From IMG/VR virus record IMGVR_UViG_3300050821_000756, positions 1 through 48,007 of that record: 48,007 nucleotides of DNA, one strand, 5' to 3'. The stretch comes from a virus. Under the pieces are notes generated by a model, which saw only the letters and a list, made by a program, of their open reading frames with translations, was not told the origin of the DNA and did no database searches. Made by a program: the position numbers and the translations under genes. Numbering within the stretch: position 1 is the stretch's first letter; each line of letters starts with the position of its first letter. Of the stretch, positions 7,016 through 48,007 are shown one piece after another.

Positions 7016-7426
7016 ATGAGACATAAATTTAATTTAGATAAGTATCTCAAGAACTTAGAGTATCGTTCTCGTAATGCTGCTAAACTTAAAACAAAACGTA
7101 GAATTAGTGATAGTTACAAGCAAGAACTCTTAAAAACTCAAAAAAGAGAGTGGAATTATAAACGGCGTTATGGCGTGTCTTTCAAAGCAGCCGAGCGAAT
7201 GCTGAAAAGTCAAAACGGTAAATGTGCTATTTGCAGTAAATTAATATCATTTGGTGGACAAGCTGGTGCTCATGTTGACCATCATCATATGACTGCTGTA
7301 ATTAGAGGTATTTTATGTCATAACTGTAATAGAATGATTGCAGAGTGTAAAGAGAGTATAACTAATCTATTTAACGCAATTAATTATTTAAGAACTTTTA
7401 GTGGTTGGGGAAAGAAAGCTGGTTAG
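7016..7426 (+). CDS. Endonuclease VII-like HNH nuclease
   Basis: A 136-residue protein with the arrangement of the T4 endonuclease VII family: a basic N-terminus, RYGVSFKAAERML, then CAIC (residues 70-73), VDHHH (87-91, metal/catalytic His), RGILC and CHNC (101-104). The four Cys should bind one zinc. In this family the catalytic site cleaves branched DNA or acts as a free-standing mobile nuclease. It sits alone between head genes, flanked by hairpins and about 60 bases of non-coding DNA on each side, which favours an inserted mobile gene. The ribosome binding site is weak. Confidence 0.8.
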   Translation: MRHKFNLDKYLKNLEYRSRNAAKLKTKRRISDSYKQELLKTQKREWNYKRRYGVSFKAAERMLKSQNGKCAICSKLISFGGQAGAHVDHHHMTAVIRGILCHNCNRMIAECKESITNLFNAINYLRTFSGWGKKAG

Positions 7427-18947: not shown

Positions 18948-19756
18948 CATTCATGTCTAATTTAGCTTCTAATCCTTCTGGTTCTATTTCAGGTCAACCA
19001 GGACCAGATAACACTGATGCACTTGGAATTGTTAATCAATTAAAAGATAGAGAGATGAGAGATTTTCAGAATAAAGCTAATTTCATGAGTGAGTTAAGTC
19101 TGAAACAAGATAGACAGAGAATGCTGTTCGATCCCAATAATCCTAATCAGGATATAATGGGAACTAGAACATTAAATGGCATGACTGCTGCAATGCAGAA
19201 ACCTCAGCAGAGTTCTGGAATCACTCCTGGTTCTCAATCTGGACAGATGAATCCGCAACAAACTGCTGAAATGAGCATGAGACAGCAGGGAATGGATTTA
19301 GATAAAGCAAAGTTAGCACAAGCTGGAAAGATGGGCGAAGAACGCATTGCTAATCAAACTGCTCAAGAGAAGTTGAATCAACAGAAGAGTGACCAGATTC
19401 ATCAGCAAAAACAGGATGAATTGAATGCTAAGATTACAGAGGCTAATGGCAAATTATCTCAAGCTCAAGCTGCATTAGCCGCTAAGGGTGTTACTGCTGA
19501 ACAGCAATTACAATCTCATAAAGACCTAGCCGCAGCGATGGAAGAAAGACATAAATTAGAATTGGCTCAGAAGGATCATGAATTCCAGAAGACTTCTGAT
19601 CAGCATCAGCAGACTATTGATAATTTGACTAAACAACTAGAACAGAAAAAAGCTCCTAAAACTACTACAACTAGTGTAAATCCAGAAGGAACTCAAAGAA
19701 CTACTACAACGCAACAAGGTGGCGATGATGAGAATGATCCTCTAGGGATTAGATGA
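18944..19756 (+). CDS. Coiled-coil internal virion (ejection-type) protein
   Basis: A 270-residue protein starting at GTG 18944 inside the upstream stop. Residues about 120-235 are a long Gln/Lys/Ala/Glu-rich coiled coil. The C-terminus is Thr-rich and acidic (TTTTSVNPEGTQRTTTTQQG). Lies between another ejection-type protein and the deoxyhypusine-synthase-like gene, to which it is coupled by an ATGA overlap. Likely an internal or ejected particle component. Identity is by character only. Confidence 0.6.
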   Translation: MTFMSNLASNPSGSISGQPGPDNTDALGIVNQLKDREMRDFQNKANFMSELSLKQDRQRMLFDPNNPNQDIMGTRTLNGMTAAMQKPQQSSGITPGSQSGQMNPQQTAEMSMRQQGMDLDKAKLAQAGKMGEERIANQTAQEKLNQQKSDQIHQQKQDELNAKITEANGKLSQAQAALAAKGVTAEQQLQSHKDLAAAMEERHKLELAQKDHEFQKTSDQHQQTIDNLTKQLEQKKAPKTTTTSVNPEGTQRTTTTQQGGDDENDPLGIR

Positions 19757-20751
19757 TGCTTCCGAGAGAAATGAAACAACCAATAGAAGTTGAATTAAAA
19801 GGCCCTACAGCTAAGTTTGTCCGAGAGAACTATCATCATTATAGTGCTCAAACGCTGAAGAATGCTACATTCGCATATAAGCATCTGCTTGATAGTGGTG
19901 GTAAGATGTTCGTGTCTCTAGCCGGAGCCATGTCCACCGGCCGCATTGGAATTTCATTAGCTAAAATGATTAGAAAAAACTATGTTTCCGGCTTGAGTGT
20001 AACTGGTGCTAATCTGGAAGAAGATGTTTTTAACCTAGTCGCACATGATACGTATTTACAGATTCCAGATTATAAAGATCTAACTAAAGAACAAGAGGAG
20101 AAGCTGGCTAAGAAGAAATTTAATCGAGTCACAGATGCAGCGATTCCGGCTACTGCAATGAGAGAAGTCGAGGATCTTATTATTCAACGATGGAAAGATT
20201 CTTCTGATAAAAAGTTCCCGCACGAGTTTCTTTGTGAGATATTACTTGATGGAGCATTAGAGAAATACTATCAAGTTGATTCATCCGAGTCATGGCTGCT
20301 TGCGGCTGCTGAGATGAAAATACCGATTGTAACACCTGGATGGGAAGATAGCACTTTGGGCAATGTGTTTACGGCTTTAGTTAGAGATATGGAAGTTGAA
20401 TCCTCAATCATTAAGAGCGGTATTGAAGCGATGAATTATCTCGCAGACTGGTATTTGAAGGAAAAAGCAGAAAAAGGCTTCTTTCAAATCGGCGGCGGAA
20501 TTGCTGGTGACTTCGCAATATGCGTAGTTCCATTTCTTCGACAAGATTGTCATATGGGAGAGAAAGTCAAGCACTGGGCTTATTTCGCACAATGCACTAA
20601 TGCTATCGTTGAAGAAGGTGGATATTCTGGTGCTGAACCGAATGAGAAGATAACGTGGGATAAAATCTCGAAGAAAACGCCTTCATTTGTTGTTAAAGGT
20701 GATGCGTCGATTACCGTCCCATTAATCTTCAATCAGATTCTCGGTGAATAA
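19753..20751 (+). CDS. Deoxyhypusine-synthase-like protein
   Basis: A 332-residue protein of the deoxyhypusine synthase family (NAD-dependent transfer of the aminobutyl group of spermidine to lysine, or to another amine in bacterial relatives). Visible motifs are the NAD-binding AGAMSTG (57-63) and TGANLEED (84-91), PIVTPGWEDSTLGN (191-204), GGGIAGDF (247-254), and YSGAEPNEKITWDK (291-304), where Lys304 occupies the place of the catalytic lysine (WGK in eukaryotic enzymes). The GGGIAGDF version, lacking the KHH histidines, is that of bacterial DHS-like proteins. Length is nearly full. It overlaps both neighbours (4 and 1 bases) and so is a co-translated late gene. Substrate is unknown. Confidence 0.85.
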   Translation: MMLPREMKQPIEVELKGPTAKFVRENYHHYSAQTLKNATFAYKHLLDSGGKMFVSLAGAMSTGRIGISLAKMIRKNYVSGLSVTGANLEEDVFNLVAHDTYLQIPDYKDLTKEQEEKLAKKKFNRVTDAAIPATAMREVEDLIIQRWKDSSDKKFPHEFLCEILLDGALEKYYQVDSSESWLLAAAEMKIPIVTPGWEDSTLGNVFTALVRDMEVESSIIKSGIEAMNYLADWYLKEKAEKGFFQIGGGIAGDFAICVVPFLRQDCHMGEKVKHWAYFAQCTNAIVEEGGYSGAEPNEKITWDKISKKTPSFVVKGDASITVPLIFNQILGE

Positions 20752-25116: not shown

Positions 25117-25277
25117 TCATTCTCCTTCTTTTGTTCATTTTCACGAGCCTTCCTCACTTCAAGTGGCGGACAAGTATAAACTTCATCATAATAGCCACCT
25201 TCATCCGGCAAAAACCATCTTATACGTACTGTATCTCCTTTTTGAGCTTGGATTGTTCGTATTACTTTATCAGTCAT
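25113..25277 (-). CDS. Small acidic/basic protein, unknown
   Basis: A 54-residue protein beginning at ATG 25277 inside the stop of the ATPase gene (ATGA). A longer in-frame start at 25337 would overlap that gene by 64 bases. The strand-rich core (GDTVRIRWFLPDEGGYYDEV) is followed by a Lys/Glu tail. Function unknown. Confidence 0.6.
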   Translation of the reverse strand: MTDKVIRTIQAQKGDTVRIRWFLPDEGGYYDEVYTCPPLEVRKARENEQKKENE

Positions 25278-26515
25278 CTCTTTTTCCGAAATTCGGTAAG
25301 GTTCTCTCTTGGTTCTCCGGCCAAATGGTATAGCCAATCCATGTTACGGCCAACTCCTACACGTTCCCTGCGACACCAAGACATCTCAATCAGCGCATCA
25401 ATAATCCGGTCTAATACTTGCGGCTCGAAGTCACCAAATCCTTTCTGTAATAACTCTCTCCGCAGTATTTGATTTTCTGGTGCTGCGATAAGAATATCCA
25501 TGACTTTGCGAGTTGCAGCCGCTAGGGGGTCTATCCCATTTCCTTCAACCGTTTTCGTATTTGCATAAATTAATCCTGTAACCTTATGTATGGCTTCTGT
25601 CACGTCCGATTCGATAATAATCCCATGATTTTCATATCTGCTCAAACAGAGGCACATTGCCACTTTAAGGCAATGATCAGGGATTCTAGTGATAAAGCCA
25701 GTTTTATCATTATATCTTGTTTCGTTCGCACGCCACTGGCTTCGCCAAGTATTATAAAGTACACGAGCAGATTCTTCAGGGATAAGACGCATTTTATTAG
25801 ATGCTATATTAATCAAATGCGGAACATACTGTGGAATAGCTTTATCACGAAACCAGTCATTGTCAGTATTATCACCTTCTGGATTTAATAAATCTAAATC
25901 TCTGGCTCTTTTCTCTTCATATATCACTAAGTTTCTTCCTATATAACCGCCTTGTATGTTATGTTGTGGAATTGAATTATAGAAATGAGCCGGACTGCTC
26001 CCGAACAAACAACTGAAATAGGGTTCTTTTAGCCGTTCAGCCCCATCACCCTTCAATAAGTTAACCCAAGGTTTATTATGATAGTTTCTATCAAAAAGAT
26101 CAGTTAAAATTTCTAAGGCTTGTGGGTCGCCTATTATTGCTGATGATAATTCACCATTGATTATGGCTGCTCGACTATCTGTTATTATAGCCTTCCCTGG
26201 TGTACTACGCGTAGTTGAAGCCTCTTTTATAATCGCCTGAATACTTGAACGGCCAGCAATAACTCTAGTTACATCTGCTTCTAATAGAAATTGCTTAGCA
26301 AGATTTACTGGATAACCTTTTCCGCGACCGCTATCGCCCAATAGAATGATGTAAACGTTCGGGTAATAAGTTACTTTACCACTAAAAGATTTCAATGTAT
26401 AGGCGTTTGCGGCTACTGAACTTATCGTAAAGAGTAAAGACCAATAAATCCAGCTTTCGGGAGTTTCGACATCGGTGTGATCATTTAGAATATCTTGAAT
26501 CCAGGAGTTGCTCAC
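25274..26515 (-). CDS. DUF3987-like phage ATPase (primase/helicase-associated)
   Basis: A 413-residue protein. The N-terminal part has a P-loop-like LLGDSGRGKG (about residues 58-67; Gly follows the Lys where Ser/Thr is usual), followed by ARAS-like SSIQAIIKEAS and a Walker-B-like IITDSRAAI / NGELSSAI region. This order is seen in DUF3987-type proteins of phage replication modules. The C-terminus includes a winged-helix-like part (ILRRELLQKGFGDFEP). It probably works as a replicative ATPase alongside the polymerase. No separate DnaB or primase gene is visible, so this protein may fill part of that role. Confidence 0.6.
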   Translation of the reverse strand: MSNSWIQDILNDHTDVETPESWIYWSLLFTISSVAANAYTLKSFSGKVTYYPNVYIILLGDSGRGKGYPVNLAKQFLLEADVTRVIAGRSSIQAIIKEASTTRSTPGKAIITDSRAAIINGELSSAIIGDPQALEILTDLFDRNYHNKPWVNLLKGDGAERLKEPYFSCLFGSSPAHFYNSIPQHNIQGGYIGRNLVIYEEKRARDLDLLNPEGDNTDNDWFRDKAIPQYVPHLINIASNKMRLIPEESARVLYNTWRSQWRANETRYNDKTGFITRIPDHCLKVAMCLCLSRYENHGIIIESDVTEAIHKVTGLIYANTKTVEGNGIDPLAAATRKVMDILIAAPENQILRRELLQKGFGDFEPQVLDRIIDALIEMSWCRRERVGVGRNMDWLYHLAGEPRENLTEFRKKR

Positions 26516-27563: not shown

Positions 27564-27736
27564 TTCTTCTCAATTCTATTATAGCAAGATGAGCATTTAG
27601 GAATATGTAGGACAATTTCTCCTTCAATTTGCATTGGTTTTCTCTTCCTTAAATATGGACAATCTAAATATTTATGAACACAATATCCCAGAGTGATTCT
27701 ACTATCTTTTTGAATGTGAAATGTCACGTATGTCAT
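27560..27736 (-). CDS. Small zinc-binding-type protein
   Basis: A 58-residue protein from ATG 27736, which overlaps the HNH gene's stop (ATGA); GGAAGGTGG lies just upstream. CSSC near the C-terminus plus two upstream Cys (GYCVHKYLDC) give a plausible zinc site. Function unknown. Confidence 0.6.
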   Translation of the reverse strand: MTYVTFHIQKDSRITLGYCVHKYLDCPYLRKRKPMQIEGEIVLHIPKCSSCYNRIEKK

Positions 27737-28206
27737 GTCCACCTTCCTAATTTCCTAGCTTTTTCCTGTCTCTTACGTATTCTACATGTATTACAAATTC
27801 TTACTATCTTACCTTTACTCCAACCAGTTTTAGTTATTCTTGTTGTATAAGGTCCACCACATTCAGGACATACTTCTTTATAGTTTGAAGTTCCATCTCT
27901 TTTTCTATCTCTCATATTGTCTGTATGAGTGCCTGGCTGTAAATGGTCTGGATTAAAGCAGGCTCTACTACATCCAGTATTATGTCTAGAATCCCACTTA
28001 GCATCACTATAATCAAGATTATGATAAATGGCTACTATGAGTCTATGTAATCTAAAATAGACCTTCTCAACTTGTATTGGTACATATCCTTCATCATCAG
28101 GTCTATTAGGAGGTATCCAACAGTTATTTTCATTTATAGTTTTAGGAAAATTATTAACCCACTCTCTATTTAATTGTGATAGTTTATAAACTTTATATCC
28201 TTTCAT
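27733..28206 (-). CDS. HNH homing-type endonuclease
   Basis: A 157-residue protein with the HNH motif SRHNTGCSRACFNPDHLQPG (about residues 73-92) followed by THTDNMRDR, and a C-terminal four-Cys zinc ribbon (CPECG...CNTC). Such enzymes cut DNA at a recognition site and are commonly inserted as free-standing genes in phage operons. Here it sits directly behind the DNA polymerase gene with a four-base overlap, a favourite insertion context for homing endonucleases. Confidence 0.82.
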   Translation of the reverse strand: MKGYKVYKLSQLNREWVNNFPKTINENNCWIPPNRPDDEGYVPIQVEKVYFRLHRLIVAIYHNLDYSDAKWDSRHNTGCSRACFNPDHLQPGTHTDNMRDRKRDGTSNYKEVCPECGGPYTTRITKTGWSKGKIVRICNTCRIRKRQEKARKLGRWT

Positions 28207-30680
28207 ATCTTGACGTGTTCAAATTCTGCATAGTTGGTGTGAGAAATTTCAATGTCACAAGGAATAATAAGATCATAATCACGCTTTAACGTGCAATATG
28301 TTCTGAAGTTTACAGGTGTTTCCATATGTTTCTTCATCAATCGAGCATATGGTTCCCAGTTATTTGCTGGAGCCTGTAGAGTGAGAGAGTCATGTTTCTC
28401 TTCTGCCCATAAAACTTCACCATCTCCATTGAGTTCTTCGTCTATCTTTAGTGCGGCACCTTGAACTACATGAGAGACTGTTCTCTGTGGAAGATTTGCG
28501 AAAGCTTCTTGATACAAACTATTGTCTAATCTTCCATTAAACACACGTACACCCCCCATTGGGTCGATGAGAACTCTTGAAGAATCAATTGCGTTTTTAA
28601 TGTCAATGTGAAATTTACCACGAATCTTAGGACTAGCATTATGAAAAAGTTCTAGAAGTTGGTTAGCTTTCCACTCACTAATGTCCATAGGAATCTCAAA
28701 TTTTTGTGCATTCGTATTGAAAGTCAGCATAAAAGTATGCTTCTTCATGTCATATGATGCAGCATATCGAACAGTTTTAGCTGTATATCTCTCAACTCCT
28801 CCTTTTGGTAGATTGTCTATTATCGTATCATGAAACTTTATACTGAGTTCTAATTTTTGTGTATAACCGAAAAGTAAACCAGCCGTTCGTCTATGCACAT
28901 CGACTCTATCGAAAGCTTGTAAGAGTTCATAATCCTCACTCAATACTGCAATCACTCTAGCTTCCGCTTGTGAGGAATCTGCCTGAAGAATAACTTTTCC
29001 TTCATCAGCTATAAACATTGATTTAATATCTTTGCCTAATCGACCATGAGCACTAATGGTGTGATCGGCTAATCCTATTTTCTTTGGCCTAAATGGTTTC
29101 TTTAAGATACCTGTAGATGAACGACATGTTTCTGTAGCGATTATATTATATGCGCTCTTTGTTCTTCCGTCATAGTCTGGCGAAAAGTTAATCTGACGTG
29201 ATTTTTGATCTCTTATGCGTCTCTCTTCTAATACATCCTTTAAGATTTCTTTTTGTTCCTTTTTCTTACAACTACTCATTAGCGAGTTAATAGTGTCTTC
29301 GGAAGTTGGATCACGCTTACGAACTTTAAATTTCATTATCTGATATAATAAACGGTGCATTTGGGGATATGATTTCGTATTAATATCATCGCCGATTGCC
29401 GCAACCAGTTTCTCATGCACTTCTTTCTGCATAGCAGAGTATTTGATAAGCAACTGGTGCTTGCGGCTGAAATCTATCCGCTTACCAGTTGTCTGAAGCT
29501 TCAAGTAAAACTTATGTTTTCGCATCATGTAATCATAGTAATATTTTACCAGCGGAACGCTGAACTGTTCTTGCATTTCATATAAATCTTTTTCTTGTGC
29601 TTCGTCTACTTCAAACTCGACCGCACAATCTCTTGCATTATATTTAAGGAAGTTTTCAAACTTGACTTTTCCCAGCTTGTATTCTTTCCCCTCATCCTTA
29701 TAAAATGGTTCCCTGGTCCATATCGAAGAGACAACGTGTAATTTTTTGACTGGGAGTTCTGGAAAGATAACTCTAGTTTTAATGAGAGTGTCTGAATAGA
29801 CAGTTGGGCATTCAAATCCGATAAGTCCAAGCTTGTACTCATCGTAGAGGAAGTTATGACCGATGATTTTAGTTCGGCGCAGCCGTTCATCTATGATTCT
29901 CCAACATTCCTCTAACTCGTTATCTCCCATATCAGTCAGTTTATTAGTTCCGATGTGTCTTAAAAGCGGTATTGAAATGGCGTGGTGTTTATTAAATGCG
30001 AAGCCTACACAGCACGGGACACAGTTGATAGATTCTATGTCCACAGCGGCTTTGTCCAGCTTCTCATACGATCTAAAGAAGCGATGCAATTCAAGAGAGT
30101 TTCTTATCACGCTCAGTTCGCGTGTTGGAAGAATCAGCTCCGCTGTGAGAGATTCCTCTGCGGCTCGGATTACGTCTGCCTGTATAATTTTATTCCAGAC
30201 CCAACTTAATCCGCCTTTAGATTCATCATCTTCTGTTGCACCGCGAGAGAACAATGCGGCTGGATGAATTGTGGGGACTACTTTTGTGATACCATCTTTG
30301 GCGGAAAGAATACTTCCGCGATAATTAAGAATGCCAGAGACATTACACACAGCTTGGAGAGCAAGATCGCCAACTGCCAAAATACAATTAGGATGGAGTT
30401 TGTTGATTTCATGAGTCCAGAGTTCCTCGATGCTCCTCTCGATTGAAACATCTATCAAGTGAAGCTTTTTCAAGTCGTTATACGGCGGTCTGAATTTAAC
30501 TACATTTGTTATAAAGCAATCTGAGCGACGTATTCCAGCCTTGAAGAGATGATCATTTAAAATCTGTCCTGTGGGACCAACGAACGGCTGACCTTGTTCA
30601 TCTTCATATTTTCCTGGCGCTTCTCCAATTATCATTAATTTTGGGTCTACGGGGCCGGTGCCAGGGATGTATTGAGGCAT
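28203..30680 (-). CDS. Uracil-DNA-glycosylase / family A DNA polymerase fusion
   Basis: An 825-residue replicative polymerase. Residues 1-170 resemble family 4 uracil-DNA glycosylase: GEAPGKYEDEQGQPF (19-33) and the HPAALFS catalytic-loop segment (139-145), but without the usual Fe-S cysteines at the N-terminus. A complete 3'-5' exonuclease follows: DIES (Asp214, Glu216), NFLYD (Asn276, Asp280) and YNARD (Tyr347, Asp351). Polymerase motifs are A, ADSSQAEAR (Asp568, Glu573); B, RYTAKTVRY (Arg631, Lys635, Tyr639); and C, KHDS (His763, Asp764). Tyr639 takes the place of Phe762 of E. coli Pol I, as in T7 polymerase. No 5' nuclease domain is present. Confidence 0.9.
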   Translation of the reverse strand: MPQYIPGTGPVDPKLMIIGEAPGKYEDEQGQPFVGPTGQILNDHLFKAGIRRSDCFITNVVKFRPPYNDLKKLHLIDVSIERSIEELWTHEINKLHPNCILAVGDLALQAVCNVSGILNYRGSILSAKDGITKVVPTIHPAALFSRGATEDDESKGGLSWVWNKIIQADVIRAAEESLTAELILPTRELSVIRNSLELHRFFRSYEKLDKAAVDIESINCVPCCVGFAFNKHHAISIPLLRHIGTNKLTDMGDNELEECWRIIDERLRRTKIIGHNFLYDEYKLGLIGFECPTVYSDTLIKTRVIFPELPVKKLHVVSSIWTREPFYKDEGKEYKLGKVKFENFLKYNARDCAVEFEVDEAQEKDLYEMQEQFSVPLVKYYYDYMMRKHKFYLKLQTTGKRIDFSRKHQLLIKYSAMQKEVHEKLVAAIGDDINTKSYPQMHRLLYQIMKFKVRKRDPTSEDTINSLMSSCKKKEQKEILKDVLEERRIRDQKSRQINFSPDYDGRTKSAYNIIATETCRSSTGILKKPFRPKKIGLADHTISAHGRLGKDIKSMFIADEGKVILQADSSQAEARVIAVLSEDYELLQAFDRVDVHRRTAGLLFGYTQKLELSIKFHDTIIDNLPKGGVERYTAKTVRYAASYDMKKHTFMLTFNTNAQKFEIPMDISEWKANQLLELFHNASPKIRGKFHIDIKNAIDSSRVLIDPMGGVRVFNGRLDNSLYQEAFANLPQRTVSHVVQGAALKIDEELNGDGEVLWAEEKHDSLTLQAPANNWEPYARLMKKHMETPVNFRTYCTLKRDYDLIIPCDIEISHTNYAEFEHVKI

Positions 30681-30844
30681 TAGTCCTCGTAATCATCTGG
30701 AAAGTATTCTTCTCCATCATCTAAATCTTCTCTATACATCGTCACTATTCTATCATACATTTCACATTTTGTATTTAAACACACTCTATCATTGAAGTTT
30801 ATAGTGAATAAGTGTTTGCCGCAAGCGACACATTCAGTTCTCAA
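30680..30844 (-). CDS. 54-residue zinc-ribbon protein
   Basis: An open frame from TTG 30844, overlapping the previous gene's end, to TAA 30682-30680, where it overlaps the polymerase ATG (TAATG). It has CVACGK and CLNTKC, a four-Cys zinc site, then an acidic tail (EDLDDGEEYFPDDYED). The coupled stop/start with the polymerase and the zinc pattern support it as a gene. The exact start codon is uncertain. Function unknown. Confidence 0.6.
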   Translation of the reverse strand: MRTECVACGKHLFTINFNDRVCLNTKCEMYDRIVTMYREDLDDGEEYFPDDYED

Positions 30845-31088
30845 GTTCTCGCTCCTTCTTTTTTAATCTAATGAAGTTGAGAGCTTCGTAGGCGTATGAG
30901 AACTGCTCTAAATCATAAATCTTCGATTCTTTCGCCAATAAAATATCTTCACATACTGATCCCAAGGAGCGTCTTAGCGACTTGGCTGTCTGAGTGAGGG
31001 TCCATTTCTTATCGTGAGTGAGTCTCTGCTTGCGGTGATAATCGGCTGTCTGTCTTGCTTGTTTAAGCCAGTCTGGTTCTGAAGACAT
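30834..31088 (-). CDS. Small helix-turn-helix-like protein
   Basis: An 84-residue basic helical protein with a possible helix-turn-helix (WTLTQTAKSLRRSLGSVCED, about 29-48). It lies next to the tRNA gene and before the polymerase. It may be a small DNA-binding regulator or replication accessory. The helix-turn-helix reading is by eye. Confidence 0.55.
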   Translation of the reverse strand: MSSEPDWLKQARQTADYHRKQRLTHDKKWTLTQTAKSLRRSLGSVCEDILLAKESKIYDLEQFSYAYEALNFIRLKKKERELEN

Positions 31089-31095
31089 TAAAGAA

Positions 31096-31177
31096 TCCCG
31101 GCAGAAGGACTCGAACCTTCACGCTTTTCAGCGTCTGATCTTAAATCAGATGCGTCTTCCAATTTCGCCATGCCGGG
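31096..31177 (-). tRNA. tRNA-Leu (anticodon UAA)
   Basis: On the minus strand an 82-base cloverleaf folds: acceptor CCCGGCA/TGCCGGG with discriminator A73, D-arm, anticodon stem TCTGA/TCAGA with loop TTTAAGA (anticodon TAA, reads UUA), long variable arm CGCT/AGCG (type II, as expected for Leu), and T-arm GAAGG-TTCGAGT-CCTTC. No CCA is encoded. It sits between early genes within the leftward operon. UUA is a frequent Leu codon in this AT-rich genome, so the tRNA probably supports translation of phage genes. Confidence 0.95.
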
Positions 31178-31187
31178 AAAGACTAAC

Positions 31188-32452: not shown

Positions 32453-32817
32453 ATTTCTTCCTCCTTTTCTTGAGCTTTGTGGATCTCCATTTGCATCTTC
32501 TCTGCTAAACTTAATTCTTCTAGTTCTGGTTGTGGATGCATAGATTCTAATAGAAGTGAGTCTTGTAAAATTCCGGGACCAACTTCTATTAATCCATTCT
32601 TAGGTTTGTGACATGAATCGCAATGCGGCTTTGCCAGTCGAAGCGCGTATTCACTCATGATAAAGGATTCACCGCATCGCCAACAGATTGAACGCTTGCC
32701 GAGAGCTAATGCGATGTTGCATTTATTACTGCAATCTGGTAAAACACAAAAAAAGATAATGTTTCCAGTTTTATAACGGAGCCTCTTATATTTATGAATA
32801 TGATTACTTTTTGTCAT
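32449..32817 (-). CDS. Zinc-ribbon early protein
   Basis: A 122-residue protein starting at ATG 32817 inside the previous stop. Two Cys clusters (CVLPDCSNKC; CWRCG...HCDSC) can hold two zinc ions. The C-terminal third is acidic and helical. Proteins opening with HKYKRLRYKTG-like segments and several CxxC pairs recur in phage replication modules. Probably nucleic-acid or protein binding; exact role unknown. Confidence 0.7.
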   Translation of the reverse strand: MTKSNHIHKYKRLRYKTGNIIFFCVLPDCSNKCNIALALGKRSICWRCGESFIMSEYALRLAKPHCDSCHKPKNGLIEVGPGILQDSLLLESMHPQPELEELSLAEKMQMEIHKAQEKEEEI

Positions 32818-33260
32818 CTAGGTGGCAAACCTTTCATCATTCTCCAAGCTTGCTCTGCTTTCGTTCCATGATGATAACGATATCTAGATTCAATTGCTTT
32901 AGGATTCATACTGTAATTATTCTTAATATGATTCTTTATGAAGGGTATAGCTATTTTCTTATATTGTGCTTTTTTAGTCGGTCCCAACCATTTCCACAGC
33001 ATACATATTGCTTGTTGAGAATGCTCAAATTTAGTAATAGTCATATAAAAATACCACTTCTTATAAAGTTTATCTTTATATGTTCTTATATATCCAAATC
33101 CTACAGCTTTTACAAATCTCTCTAATGGAAAAGACTCGGCTTGTCCCAGTTGAATAACTGGAGCCATACTTCTAGCTCTTCCACTAGGTTTAGTTGTTGA
33201 GCCTTCTCCATCAAAGAATCCAGCAGCCCAAGCTAACTCATGAGTGTCGATCTTTATCAT
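32814..33260 (-). CDS. LAGLIDADG-type homing endonuclease (second)
   Basis: A 148-residue protein with a single LAGLIDADG-like helix LAWAAGFFDGEGS (residues 8-20) followed by a basic beta-alpha domain (FGYIRTYKDKLYKKWYFYMT). It is not closely similar to the first LAGLIDADG gene at 1175 outside the motif. It is inserted upstream of the zinc-ribbon/Sak4 pair and preceded by a 160-base non-coding stretch with a long inverted repeat. ATGA overlap with the next gene. Confidence 0.75.
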   Translation of the reverse strand: MIKIDTHELAWAAGFFDGEGSTTKPSGRARSMAPVIQLGQAESFPLERFVKAVGFGYIRTYKDKLYKKWYFYMTITKFEHSQQAICMLWKWLGPTKKAQYKKIAIPFIKNHIKNNYSMNPKAIESRYRYHHGTKAEQAWRMMKGLPPR

Positions 33261-35352: not shown

Positions 35353-36942
35353 TTAAAGTCTCCAAGCATTCATGCCGCGAGTGACCAATATTTCTGCAAG
35401 TTCTTTCATAAGTGACGCTTGGTTCCAAATCACTTCTTGATTATCCATTGTTGCTGCAATCCTTGCTCTTTTAATCTCTACAAGTTCAGTGAAAAAATCA
35501 TCGATGGTTCCGGCTGCAATCATGTATGTAATGCTTACATTATTCTGTTGCCCGAAACGGTGAAATCTATCTTCGGCTTGTTCTTCTCTTGTTGGTGTCC
35601 ACTGCCTTTCAAGTATTACTGCGTCAGAACAGAATTGCAAGTTAATGCCCTCGGTGAAGATGCAGAGCATCAATCTGTTCTCAGGTAACTTGAATTTATC
35701 AATTGCTCTCTGACGTTCATCTCCAGACATTGAAGCTTGTAATGTAATGACTTTTGGAAAACCTCCGTCTTTCATGTATTCATTAAGCTTCACTTCTAGC
35801 ATTCCCATTACATCTTGATGATGTGTAAAGATTACCAGCTTTCTATCTGTTGATAAGAGAAATTCTGTAGCGAAGTCTACACATTCTACAACCTTACTCC
35901 GCCCTGTAATGTGACGAAGTTTAGACATTATTGCAATCTTCGGGTCATTCGGCCCGAAATCGCTTTCTTCGTAGAATGAAGCTTCTAACTCTTTCATCCC
36001 TTGCGCGTATTCCTTGCTCAAATTCTTATTCAATTCGACGTGATGAAACTTGCGTTCTTTTGCTGGCAAGTCTTTTAATACTTCAGCTTTAGTGCGACGG
36101 ATGATTAAATCTTTCGTATCTTCGTGAAACTTGTCTTTGTCTTTCAATCCGCCGTATTTATTACTCCATCCGTCACTATACGAGTCAACGTAGTTATCAA
36201 TGTATTTCTGGAAATGTGTGAATCTCTTTGGGTCTACAAGGTTTAGAACAGTGAAATACTCAGCGGCATTATTGCTAATTGGTGTGCCGCTCATTGGCAG
36301 AATGTGTTCAATTTCTTGATTCCGCACAAGGCGCTGGACAGCTTTCGCTCTATCAGAAAGATGATTCTTGATTTTCTGGCATTCGTCGATTATTAAAGTT
36401 TTGATGCTGCCTACCGGCAGGTATTCAAAGAGGTCATCTTTCTTCAGAATGTCATACGTTACGACATAAATCTGAAAGCCTGGCATTGCTCTTTCTTTGC
36501 CGGATGATATTACTTGTGTGAGAAATGTCTTATCGTATGCACCGTTTACTGCACAGATACGATGTATTTCACGCATCCATTGCAGTTTCACTGTAGCAGG
36601 ACATACTATCACTGCTGGCAGTAATTTCTTTGGATGAAGGCGAAGTAATACAGCCGATTCAATCGTCTTACCTAGACCTTGTTCATCTGCAATGATACAG
36701 CGAATATTGCTGTCTTCCGCGAAACGAATAGCTTCAATCTGATATGGTCTAGGTTTACCACCATCAGAGAATATGATTGATTCATACGCTGCATCGGTCG
36801 TTTTCTTGACGATAGACTGTTTAATGACATGACCGCAAGCAAGCTTAATTCTTAATTGCCCACCAAACTTAAAACGAGAAGCTTCGACTGCGATTTTATT
36901 ACACTCGGGGCATTCTTGTCGGAGTATTTGTGTTAATGACAT
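35353..36942 (-). CDS. SNF2-family (SF2) DNA helicase
   Basis: A 529-residue protein. An N-terminal zinc-ribbon-like part (CPEC...CGH, residues 11-38) precedes the helicase core: Q-like PRPYQIEAI, motif I DEQGLGKT (86-93), motif II DECQ (186-189, in place of DEAH/DEGH), motif III SGTP (218-221), and in the C-terminal half a THHQ-like region and motif VI QAEDRFHRFGQ. The order and spacing are those of compact SNF2/RapA-type phage helicases. It is likely to help in replication, recombination or template remodelling. Confidence 0.88.
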   Translation of the reverse strand: MSLTQILRQECPECNKIAVEASRFKFGGQLRIKLACGHVIKQSIVKKTTDAAYESIIFSDGGKPRPYQIEAIRFAEDSNIRCIIADEQGLGKTIESAVLLRLHPKKLLPAVIVCPATVKLQWMREIHRICAVNGAYDKTFLTQVISSGKERAMPGFQIYVVTYDILKKDDLFEYLPVGSIKTLIIDECQKIKNHLSDRAKAVQRLVRNQEIEHILPMSGTPISNNAAEYFTVLNLVDPKRFTHFQKYIDNYVDSYSDGWSNKYGGLKDKDKFHEDTKDLIIRRTKAEVLKDLPAKERKFHHVELNKNLSKEYAQGMKELEASFYEESDFGPNDPKIAIMSKLRHITGRSKVVECVDFATEFLLSTDRKLVIFTHHQDVMGMLEVKLNEYMKDGGFPKVITLQASMSGDERQRAIDKFKLPENRLMLCIFTEGINLQFCSDAVILERQWTPTREEQAEDRFHRFGQQNNVSITYMIAAGTIDDFFTELVEIKRARIAATMDNQEVIWNQASLMKELAEILVTRGMNAWRL

Positions 36943-39255: not shown

Positions 39256-39314
39256 TTATTATATCTCGATTCGGAGTAAGAGTGTAACGTTGTTAATCAT
39301 TGTGCGACCCTCGG

Positions 39315-39696
39315 TGACGTGACGCCTTGCTGCGAGAGACCGATACGACCGTAACCCGTTGCGCGTGTTGACGTTAGGTGCCCGGCGTGACGTGCAAGGC
39401 TCTGCATGTCTAAGAGTATAGCATACCCGGTGGCCGTTGTCAAGCGGTTTCGGTGTCCTGTTTTGGGGACAGTGATTTATATATCTATATCTTATAATAA
39501 TATATATAATAATATATAAAAAAATATATAAGAGAATACCACGACCATACTACCACCGTCCAGGGGTTGACGTTGCTACTGGCGCGCGCAAAACACGCAA
39601 AAAGCCGCTAAACGCCCGTGTTTGCAGCCTGTTAGGTGCCAAGGGGCACGTTCGCCCGCGTGCTCTACCGGAACGCTGCCGTGACGAGACTTGACG
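39315..39696 (+). repeat. Iteron-like TGACG repeats with AT-rich element: candidate replication origin
   Basis: TGACG occurs seven times on the same strand, at 39315, 39320, 39369, 39388, 39568, 39682 and 39692, with no copy seen on the other strand in this stretch. GTTAGGTGCC is repeated at 39373 and 39631. Between them is a run with 48 of 50 A/T bases (39481-39530) that would unwind easily. The region is non-coding (39256-39934) and separates divergent transcripts. Together these are the usual parts of an initiator-bound origin. Function inferred. Confidence 0.5.
39415..39443 (-). promoter_or_regulatory. Leftward early promoter, sigma70 consensus
   Basis: Minus strand: TTGACA (39443-39438), 17-bp spacer, TATACT (39420-39415). 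Both boxes are at or near consensus with ideal spacing. It faces the whole early operon (39255 down to 24248), with no other gene between. It probably drives it with the host polymerase; no phage RNA polymerase gene is seen. Confidence 0.85.
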
Positions 39697-39749
39697 GAAC
39701 GTGAAGGGCCAAGCGACAACGTTACGAGTAGCTGCCTGGTAAATAATAG

Positions 39750-39778
39750 TTGACAAGTCTATCGTTTTGTGTCATACT
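39750..39778 (+). promoter_or_regulatory. Rightward promoter 1 of the isolated gene
   Basis: TTGACA (39750-39755), 17-bp spacer, CATACT (39773-39778). Near-consensus sigma70 promoter, 97 bp upstream of a second one with the same layout. It reads into the gene at 39935. Confidence 0.8.
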
Positions 39779-39846
39779 TTTAATTGTCAGACCGAGCCAA
39801 GGTGCAAAAAATCGCAACCTTGAGCAAGCGAAGCGAGAGAAAGGGC

Positions 39847-39875
39847 TTGACAGACGAAGAGAAACGTGCTACACT
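39847..39875 (+). promoter_or_regulatory. Rightward promoter 2 of the isolated gene
   Basis: TTGACA (39847-39852), 17-bp spacer, TACACT (39870-39875). With promoter 1 it forms a tandem pair. Start of transcription would fall near 39882, giving a leader of about 53 bases before ATG 39935. A CAAGGT...ACCTTG imperfect hairpin lies between the promoters (about 39797-39825). Confidence 0.82.
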
Positions 39876-39934
39876 TATCTTGTTGGTTACGAACGACCGA
39901 CAGACGTAAACGGAGAAGGAAAGTGAGACACAAA

Positions 39935-40444
39935 ATGGCCGAAAAAGTCGAGACAGCCGAAGAGAAGGCAGAGCGAGAAGCACGAGAGAAGGCGAGAGCA
40001 GATGCGGTCGCTGCGAAACAGAAGATTGCTGATGCAGAGAATGCCAAGCGCACTGGTCAGGGAACTAGACTTCTAGTCGGCACTACTCGCGGTCGTTCAA
40101 CAGTTCCATTCACTTACGAGGCATTCGATTCTTCTCTTCCTGAGACAATGCCGAAGTCTGTGGAAGATTTCATGGGACTCACGACTACCGACGACGGCCC
40201 ACTTCTGAACTATCTGGTCGAGGGTTACAATTCACTGAGCGAGAAGAATGCTGCCGACCCAGTGAATGAGTTTGTTGATGCTTCCTGGCCTGAAGATGTG
40301 CAGAAGCGTTTCAAGATTGTCATCCGCAATTACTCGAACGATGCGAATGTTTCAATCGAGGATGCGGTTTCGCTTTTGAAGCCTGGCATTCAGAAGGGAA
40401 TTGACGCAATACGCCTTGCAGAAGCGACTCCGGTGACTGCTTGA
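39935..40444 (+). CDS. Strongly expressed 169-residue early-type protein, unknown
   Basis: ATG 39935 follows GGAGAAGGAAAG. An earlier in-frame ATG at 39866 falls inside the -10 region of promoter 2 and is rejected. Residues 1-45 are a highly charged Ala/Glu/Lys coiled coil; the rest is soluble, partly helical, ending in ATPVTA. GC content and codon choice (GAG, AAG, GCC, GTC) clearly exceed those of the surrounding genes. It has two consensus promoters, a strong ribosome binding site and a terminator of its own, so it should be one of the most abundant phage proteins. Candidate host-takeover or DNA-binding protein. No family recognised. Confidence 0.78.
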   Translation: MAEKVETAEEKAEREAREKARADAVAAKQKIADAENAKRTGQGTRLLVGTTRGRSTVPFTYEAFDSSLPETMPKSVEDFMGLTTTDDGPLLNYLVEGYNSLSEKNAADPVNEFVDASWPEDVQKRFKIVIRNYSNDANVSIEDAVSLLKPGIQKGIDAIRLAEATPVTA

Positions 40445-41124: not shown

Positions 41125-41309
41125 TTAGGAGTGACCCCCCAGGGACACCCCACCATATATTGTGGATGTTAAATGTCTTACAGTGCGGAATGTCTATATT
41201 TCACTCAATCATTTTCAATTGAATTCTAAGTGGTTTTACAGAAAAAATAAAAATAAAAAATGAGCAACTGAAAATTTCAGACGGCCCCAAAACCTTAACA
41301 AAAACCCCC

Positions 41310-41339
41310 TTGACTTTTTCAAGACGTTCGACCTACAAT
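41310..41339 (+). promoter_or_regulatory. Late-region promoter
   Basis: TTGACT (41310-41315), 18-bp spacer, TACAAT (41334-41339). It is the only strong rightward promoter before the chain of late genes 41345-47910 and 1-24251. The first ATG (41345) lies only five bases after the -10 box, so the transcript would begin at or about the start codon, giving a leaderless message. Confidence 0.75.
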
Positions 41340-41344
41340 GGGGG

Positions 41345-41836
41345 ATGAAAAGTCGAAGGGGACGTGTATTTGTAAAGCCAAGAGATACATTTACAGAAGA
41401 AGAAATAGCATATATAATAATTTTTAGATTAAAACATATTGATGAGGAGAGTATAGAGTTAGCTACTAGATTATTAAGGAAAGTTAAAATATTACATGAT
41501 ACTGGTTGTTGGGTAACAAATGAAGACTGGTCTGAATATAGAAATTTTAATCATGAGGCAGTTCATATATTATCTTACAGATTATTTGTAGGAAAGATAG
41601 TTAAATATATTCTTCATCACTGTGATAGAAAAGGATGTATGAATTATACACATTTATTTCAAGGATCATGTAGTGACAATAAGAAGGATTGGGAAGTGAA
41701 GAAGGCAACTTATTTAAAAGTTAGACAGATAGAGCTTCTGAGAAGGAGAGAGCAATCTCCTAATGGAAGAGTAGCTTCAGGGGATAAAATCATTAGATCT
41801 TGGAGAGAGATGGCGAACGGTAGAGTGAGGTTATGA
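41345..41836 (+). CDS. HNH homing-type endonuclease, first gene of the late region
   Basis: A 163-residue protein with the HNH_3-type motif HHCDRKGCMNYTHLFQGSCS and DN (about residues 90-112), preceded by a basic helical domain. No ribosome binding site precedes ATG 41345, and the promoter ends five bases away. If translated from a leaderless message it would be the first late product; otherwise it is an inserted mobile gene using the promoter region. The AT content is higher than in the neighbouring genes, consistent with separate origin. Confidence 0.75.
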   Translation: MKSRRGRVFVKPRDTFTEEEIAYIIIFRLKHIDEESIELATRLLRKVKILHDTGCWVTNEDWSEYRNFNHEAVHILSYRLFVGKIVKYILHHCDRKGCMNYTHLFQGSCSDNKKDWEVKKATYLKVRQIELLRRREQSPNGRVASGDKIIRSWREMANGRVRL

Positions 41837-47755: not shown

Positions 47756-48007
47756 TGTTTCGATTCATCTCTTTTCTCCTTCACCGAGAGTGGGAACCCT
47801 GCAAGTCCTGTGAAAACTTGAAACAGCAGCTTGAATTTGAACGCTCAGAAAAGAGACTCTTAATTGACACATTAGTTTCTATTGTGAAGCCTAAAGAAGT
47901 TGAAGCAGCCGCACCCATCGAGATTAATCAAATTCAGCAATCATCAGCATTATTCTCTCGCCGCCGTCAGGCGTTAGAAGAAAGAGATAGACAGGAAGCA
48001 AAGATTT
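47755..48007 (+). CDS. N-terminal part of the protein that spans the circular join
   Basis: ATG 47755 overlaps the terminase TAA. The frame runs to the window end and continues at base 98 once the 97-base repeat is overlapped, ending at 207 (120 residues in total). The N-terminus has an aromatic start (MFRFISFLLHREWEP) and a CKSC pair, then a charged helical region. Unknown function. Confidence 0.85.
   Translation, partial: MFRFISFLLHREWEPCKSCENLKQQLEFERSEKRLLIDTLVSIVKPKEVEAAAPIEINQIQQSSALFSRRRQALEERDRQEAKI
47911..48007. repeat. Terminal direct repeat, right copy
   Basis: Identical to bases 1-97. See the left copy: it shows the sequence is a closed circle of 47,910 bp, with a gene crossing the join. 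Confidence 0.95.

Follow-up and report, generated by a model that had tools for sequence, protein, structure and literature searches.

The DNA analysed here, called the window below, comprises the 48,007 bases of a virus record in IMG/VR. Since its ends (1-97 and 47911-48007) overlap exactly over 97 nt, indicating a circular assembly or a complete genome, the genome is probably complete. Just upstream of a conserved replication operon, next to the end that carries the SNF2 helicase, is the region of interest (39256-39934). The other members of the operon encode a Sak4-like protein, a PDDEXK nuclease, a uracil-DNA glycosylase fused to a family A DNA polymerase (UDG-PolA) and a DUF3987 protein (Table 1). 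A single tRNA-Leu(TAA) is found within this operon (31095-31178). A search of Rfam gave no match in 39256-39934 and only a tRNA elsewhere in the window. For the gene on the other side, g39935, the structure model has a pLDDT of 91, yet no match at E<=0.001 was obtained in the PDB or among the viral folds of BFVD, and tblastn found no homologue in annotated phages. One homologue is present in a Pacearchaeota MAG, on a contig of 7.2 kb that may be a misbinned phage sequence.

Table 1. Features of the element and of the genes considered with it (positions in the window)
Feature	Position	Strand	Remarks
DUF3987 helicase/primase-like protein, winged-helix-like C-terminus	25274..26515	-	candidate iteron-reading initiator (putative role)
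Uracil-DNA glycosylase fused to family A DNA polymerase (one protein)	28203..30680	-	replication operon
84-aa ParB/KorB-like helix-turn-helix protein	30834..31088	-	alternative candidate repeat reader (putative role)
SNF2-type helicase	35353..36942	-	replication operon
Left array zone, degenerate: GTAACGTTGT 39284-39293, TGACG 39315 and 39320	39284..39345	+	matches array position in relatives
Left box, homologous to consensus TGTAAGTCGTTG...GTTAG	39349..39376	+	inverse CAACGACTTACAG on other side in several relatives
Leftward sigma70-type promoter TTGACA-N17-TATACT, extended -10	39415..39443	-	predicted to drive replication operon, from sequence; conserved in relatives
Inverted repeat TGTCC-TGTTTTGG-GGACA, between island and promoter	39454..39471		in most of window-type subgroup
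A/T island, proposed unwinding region	39475..39531		AT-richest 50 bp of genome; island present in ~30 relatives
Second GTTAGGTGCC	39631..39640	+	first copy 39373-39382; not conserved in relatives
Right array zone, degenerate: TGACG 39682, TGACG 39692, TGAAG 39702; ACAACGTTAC 39716-39725	39660..39730	+	matches array position in relatives
Rightward promoter 1, TTGACA-N17-CATACT	39750..39778	+	conserved in L002/L003
Rightward promoter 2, TTGACA-N17-TACACT	39847..39875	+	conserved in L002/L003
Neighbour gene g39935, 169 aa, no known fold or function	39935..40444	+	accompanies element in either orientation

A preliminary description of the region, made from the window sequence, proposed a replication origin combined with a bidirectional control region that separates divergent early transcripts, with TGACG as the iteron. 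The sequence features on which it relied are all present. TGACG occurs seven times on the + strand (39315, 39320, 39369, 39388, 39568, 39682 and 39692) and its inverse, CGTCA, is absent from 39256-39934. Dinucleotide shuffles of the 679-bp region predict 1.4 copies and none of them reached seven, so that the count exceeds random expectation. When any 5-mer with at least two G/C is allowed to reach seven copies, the probability falls from 0.03 over the whole region to 0.001 within 39310-39710. The repeated sequence reported there, GTTAGGTGCC, is indeed confined to its two copies (39373 and 39631) within the 48,007 bases. Likewise, the run of 50 bases with only two G/C falls in 39475-39531, which contains the lowest-GC 50-mers of the 48-kb genome, and the one leftward and two rightward promoters lie where they had been placed and are conserved in relatives. 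The TGTCC-TGTTTTGG-GGACA inverted repeat is likely to be a protein site.

Relatives were collected using the SNF2 helicase and the two genes beside the region as probes, which yielded about 40 IMG/VR contigs with the same gene order as the window. No DNA match to the window was detected in 50,697 phage records, annotated phage relatives show less than 60% identity for the helicase, TerL and PolA, and a search of the literature found no description of the element. One architecture is shared by some 30 related phages, all uncultured, whose protein identities range from about 30 to 96%: an A/T island between two inverted arrays of 10-bp repeats, with a promoter inside. When 15-20 kb pieces of 16 relative genomes were scanned with a composite score for this plan, the element was the top site in all 16, and in about 12 of them the score stood clearly above that at other lags. 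The same scan did not find the element in distant helicase relatives (L012-L024), nor the array plan in phages that share the UDG-PolA and DUF3987 genes (L111-L114).

The arrays sit about 120 bp from the A/T island on both sides, in zones running roughly from -180 to -235 and from +150 to +240 relative to the island start. Averaged over 32-34 genomes, matching at lags of 10, 20 and 30 is 0.37, 0.32 and 0.31 in the left flank and 0.38, 0.34 and 0.33 in the right flank; other lags in these zones give 0.23-0.28 without peaks, and the peak at 10/20/30 is missing 400 bp further out in the same genomes. Individual arrays reach 30-41 matches out of 50, compared with an average of 19 and a 99th percentile of 27 for other segments of the same loci. 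For most relatives with strong arrays, no other windows within 15-20 kb have as high a lag-10 signal as those on either side of the island. The core of the decamer is mostly TCG(G/T)A, with sequences such as ACGTTGACAG or CTTTTGGACG in other lineages. TGACG is absent from the relatives and must be rejected as a conserved iteron: what these phages carry instead of same-strand TGACG copies are inverted, phased 10-bp arrays of lineage-specific sequence.

The two flanks align better in inverted than in direct orientation in 22 of 29 cases (mean score 33 versus 17). Moreover, the left array of a genome matches its own right array better than a swapped one (27.3 versus 16.4; 0 of 20,000 permutations), and this excess over mismatched pairs holds within the TCG(G/T)A group too. 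The two arrays have thus evolved in concert, and since those of one genome match each other, both are probably read by one protein. The space between array and island contains a box, TGTAAGTCGTTG, the inverse of which appears on the far side in several genomes.

The island is the lowest or near-lowest GC 50-mer in the relatives. In most of them it is enclosed in a long dyad (mean z -3.3, many below -4) whose arms differ in sequence from genome to genome. The most regular component is the embedded promoter, which faces the helicase operon in every one of 31 genomes and has its -35 hexamer at a median of 85 bp from the island start. It has on average 10.8 of 12 consensus matches, versus 6.2 in the mirror position across the island, where none of the 31 genomes has a promoter. 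The separation of divergent transcripts emphasized in the preliminary description is a feature of the window and its subgroup, in which promoters face outward on both sides. This is not conserved where the neighbour gene is inverted, as it is in most relatives; the element itself nevertheless remains intact in these genomes. The element is therefore not merely a divergent promoter.

Considered by itself, the window is a poor representative of this plan. Its 10-bp arrays are not significant (23 and 19 of 50, versus 23 and 27 at control lags), nor are its composite score and its island dyad (z -0.5). Its repeats are eroded, and arrays are degenerate throughout its subgroup; in L002 and L003, its closest relatives, the dyads are strong and the arrays weak. 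Some vestiges are left. Two TGACG copies and a TGAAG in the right array zone follow one another at 10-bp spacing, like the decamer arrays of the relatives, and ACAACGTTAC in the right zone is the exact inverse of GTAACGTTGT in the left one. Given the lack of significance of its own arrays, composite score and dyad, the case for the window rests on the element's homologous position and homologous inner parts.

It appears, with moderate confidence, that the region is the main replication origin of the phage, with the operon promoter embedded in it. The origin proposed at the outset is thus retained as the best explanation, although by virtue of the island, array and promoter plan of some 30 relatives and not of TGACG, which is not the conserved unit. 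Origins typically have helically phased iterons beside an A+T-rich region (PMC5043065). Phased tandem repeats are evident in the relatives at lags 10/20/30 and not significant in the window, and an adjacent A/T-rich region is present in both. GC skew, in contrast, lends no force to this reading. The cumulative minimum does fall near 39 kb, but the switch at this site arises since the genes change strand there: skew tracks the coding strand, and inversion of g39935 leaves the skew of its coding strand unaltered (0.12 versus 0.10, P=0.64). It was rejected as origin evidence for that reason.

How such an origin might work can be outlined from its layout. A phage initiator would bind the 10-bp sites, one per helical turn, on both flanks. 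The arrays being inverted, the two complexes would face each other and could bend or wrap the ~300 bp between them, straining and opening the A/T island. In most relatives, the island dyad might in addition form a cruciform or hairpin. Transcription of the replication genes from the embedded promoter, 35 bp outside the island, may help the opening or supply a primer for the family A polymerase, and occupation of the flanking arrays could repress this promoter, resulting in autoregulation.

The best candidate for the initiator is the DUF3987 protein, which matches phage primase/helicase families and is encoded in 16 of 17 relatives; the remaining one is a record of 41.7 kb and possibly incomplete. 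In one relative (G001) the gene runs across the contig ends. The C-terminal stretch of the protein is more variable than the rest (53% versus 71% identity) and, as judged by eye from the sequence and not from a computed fold, resembles a winged helix. An alternative candidate reader is the 84-aa protein, predicted to fold like the helix-turn-helix domains of ParB and KorB with middling Z scores (up to 7.3). Covariation gives no preference between the two: in both proteins the TCG(G/T)A group is distinct from the other relatives, but the difference tracks phylogeny, and one genome, G008, is ambiguous.

The most regular trait of the element, a promoter between arrays, is also what would be expected of a transcriptional switch without any origin. 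A repressor or nucleoid-type protein on the phased arrays would loop or wrap the DNA and silence the early promoter, the A/T island being an upstream activating or bending element. The divergent promoters and the operator-like TGTCC palindrome conserved in the window's subgroup speak for it, and arrays flanking a promoter would suit a repressor as well as a centromere. We regard it as unlikely, however. A switch needs neither a 50-bp A/T core within a long dyad nor a mirror symmetry centred on the island rather than on the promoter, and the arrays are on both sides regardless of the direction of the neighbour gene. Nor was an integrase family found in six genomes searched with a working control, a result that argues equally against a centromere-like (parC-like) partition site, in which a small DNA-binding protein on the arrays would serve segregation. 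This last function has a precedent in the split parC of plasmid R1, where two repeat sets surround the par promoter and ParR contacts 10-bp repeats (PMC5016525), and the ParB/KorB-like protein is conserved in the present phages. Still, it is very unlikely: parC is made of tandem direct repeats, whereas the arrays here are inverted, and no ParA-type ATPase was found in the six genomes, again with a working control. In the corresponding search for StbA/ParM (PF06406), the positive control remained silent.

The origin could also reside in the other gene-free stretch (about 41130-41340), leaving a regulatory role to the element at 39.3-39.9 kb. Noncoding DNA is indeed conserved there (90-93% over 50-60 bp in L002 and L003), together with a palindrome, CCACCATATATTGTGG, an A-rich tract and a promoter, yet no iterons were seen and the motif TTACAGTSCGGA is found only in the window-type subgroup and not in most relatives, which makes this location quite improbable. 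As for chance or composition, with a few TGACG copies happening to lie near an A/T run and promoters, the modest statistics of the window taken alone (P=0.03 to 0.001 allowing any 5-mer) and the aperiodicity of its own arrays would be compatible with an artefact. The comparative data contradict it, the architecture having been kept in about 30 genomes across the protein identities given above, and such an accident is extremely unlikely.

The closest parallel to the proposed origin is offered by the phage-inducible chromosomal islands (PICIs), in whose origins two sets of iterons invariably enclose an AT-rich region (PMC6092414), and by SaPIs, whose Rep helicases read the iterons through their C-terminal domain (PMC7581432). 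In these systems, too, iterons are lineage-specific and surround a probable melting site (PMC6092414, PMC7581432), and the candidate initiator considered here is likewise helicase-like with a C-terminal part that may bind DNA. Two repeat sets around the AT-rich region are present in the relatives and degenerate in the window. The differences are also clear. PICI and SaPI origins are located immediately 3' of the rep gene, while the element is upstream of the operon and, in the window, separated from the DUF3987 gene by about 13 kb. Rather than integrating satellite islands, its carriers are tailed-phage genomes of ~44-50 kb (~48 kb in the case at hand) with terminase and DNA polymerase and without a detected integrase. 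Furthermore, the iterons are here 10 bp long and mirror-symmetric, with a promoter inside, and the initiator is only a candidate.

Other systems resemble the element in part. Lambda ori and the origins of iteron plasmids have helically phased initiator sites beside an A+T-rich region, which transcription can help to open (PMC5043065), but the repeats of the element are on both sides and in opposite orientation, a DnaA box (TTWTNCACA) is absent from 33 of 34 elements, and a search for the Rep_3 initiator family found none. Points in common with herpes simplex oriS (PMC12543377) are inverted recognition boxes around an AT-rich spacer, the potential to form a hairpin and an SF2 origin-binding helicase. 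However, oriS consists of single boxes within ~80 bp, compared with arrays over 450 bp here, and the likeness is one of design, an analogy and not kinship. The parC sites of R1 and pB171 share two arrays of ~10-bp repeats around a promoter (PMC5016525), and differ in repeat orientation and in the ParA-type ATPase as described above.

Taken further, and only tentatively, the comparison suggests a lineage of apparently non-integrating tailed phages with a mirror-symmetric origin of the PICI/SaPI type. It might combine inverted decamer arrays, a hairpin A/T island, a built-in operon promoter and a DUF3987 winged-helix reader, the array sequences evolving fast and together with the initiator. To our knowledge, only a few virulent tailed phages have a mapped origin, and no such origin has been assigned to DUF3987 proteins. 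A PICI-like plan in whole phage genomes would provide a natural series of array and initiator variants for work on initiator specificity, and the element may serve as a signature for finding origins in uncultured viruses. A cloned PICI pri-rep-ori has been assayed for plasmid maintenance (PMC6092414).

An A/T dyad with a promoter is also seen in the Microcystis phage Mel-JY34, which shares the UDG-PolA and DUF3987 genes. Its lowest-GC 50-mer lies inside a 28-bp intergenic inverted repeat (L111:44120-44260) that scores 41, against a shuffle maximum of 24, and a TTGACA promoter stands beside it. This A/T dyad is a possible origin of that phage.

Several other features of the window deserve mention. 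In the second conserved noncoding element, at 41130-41340, CCACCATATATTGTGGATGTTAAA and TTACAGTGCGGA are accompanied by an A-rich tract containing CTGAAAATTTCAG and by a promoter pointing to the right arm. Within the phage structural arm there is a deoxyhypusine-synthase-like gene (19753-20751; PF01916, 1e-40). Genes for HNH- or LAGLIDADG-like endonucleases, recognized by sequence, are found at 1172-1708, 7016-7426, 27733-28206, 32814-33260 and 41345-41836. The last of these matches phage endonuclease families, is AT-rich and CpG-poor, and is probably a recent insertion.
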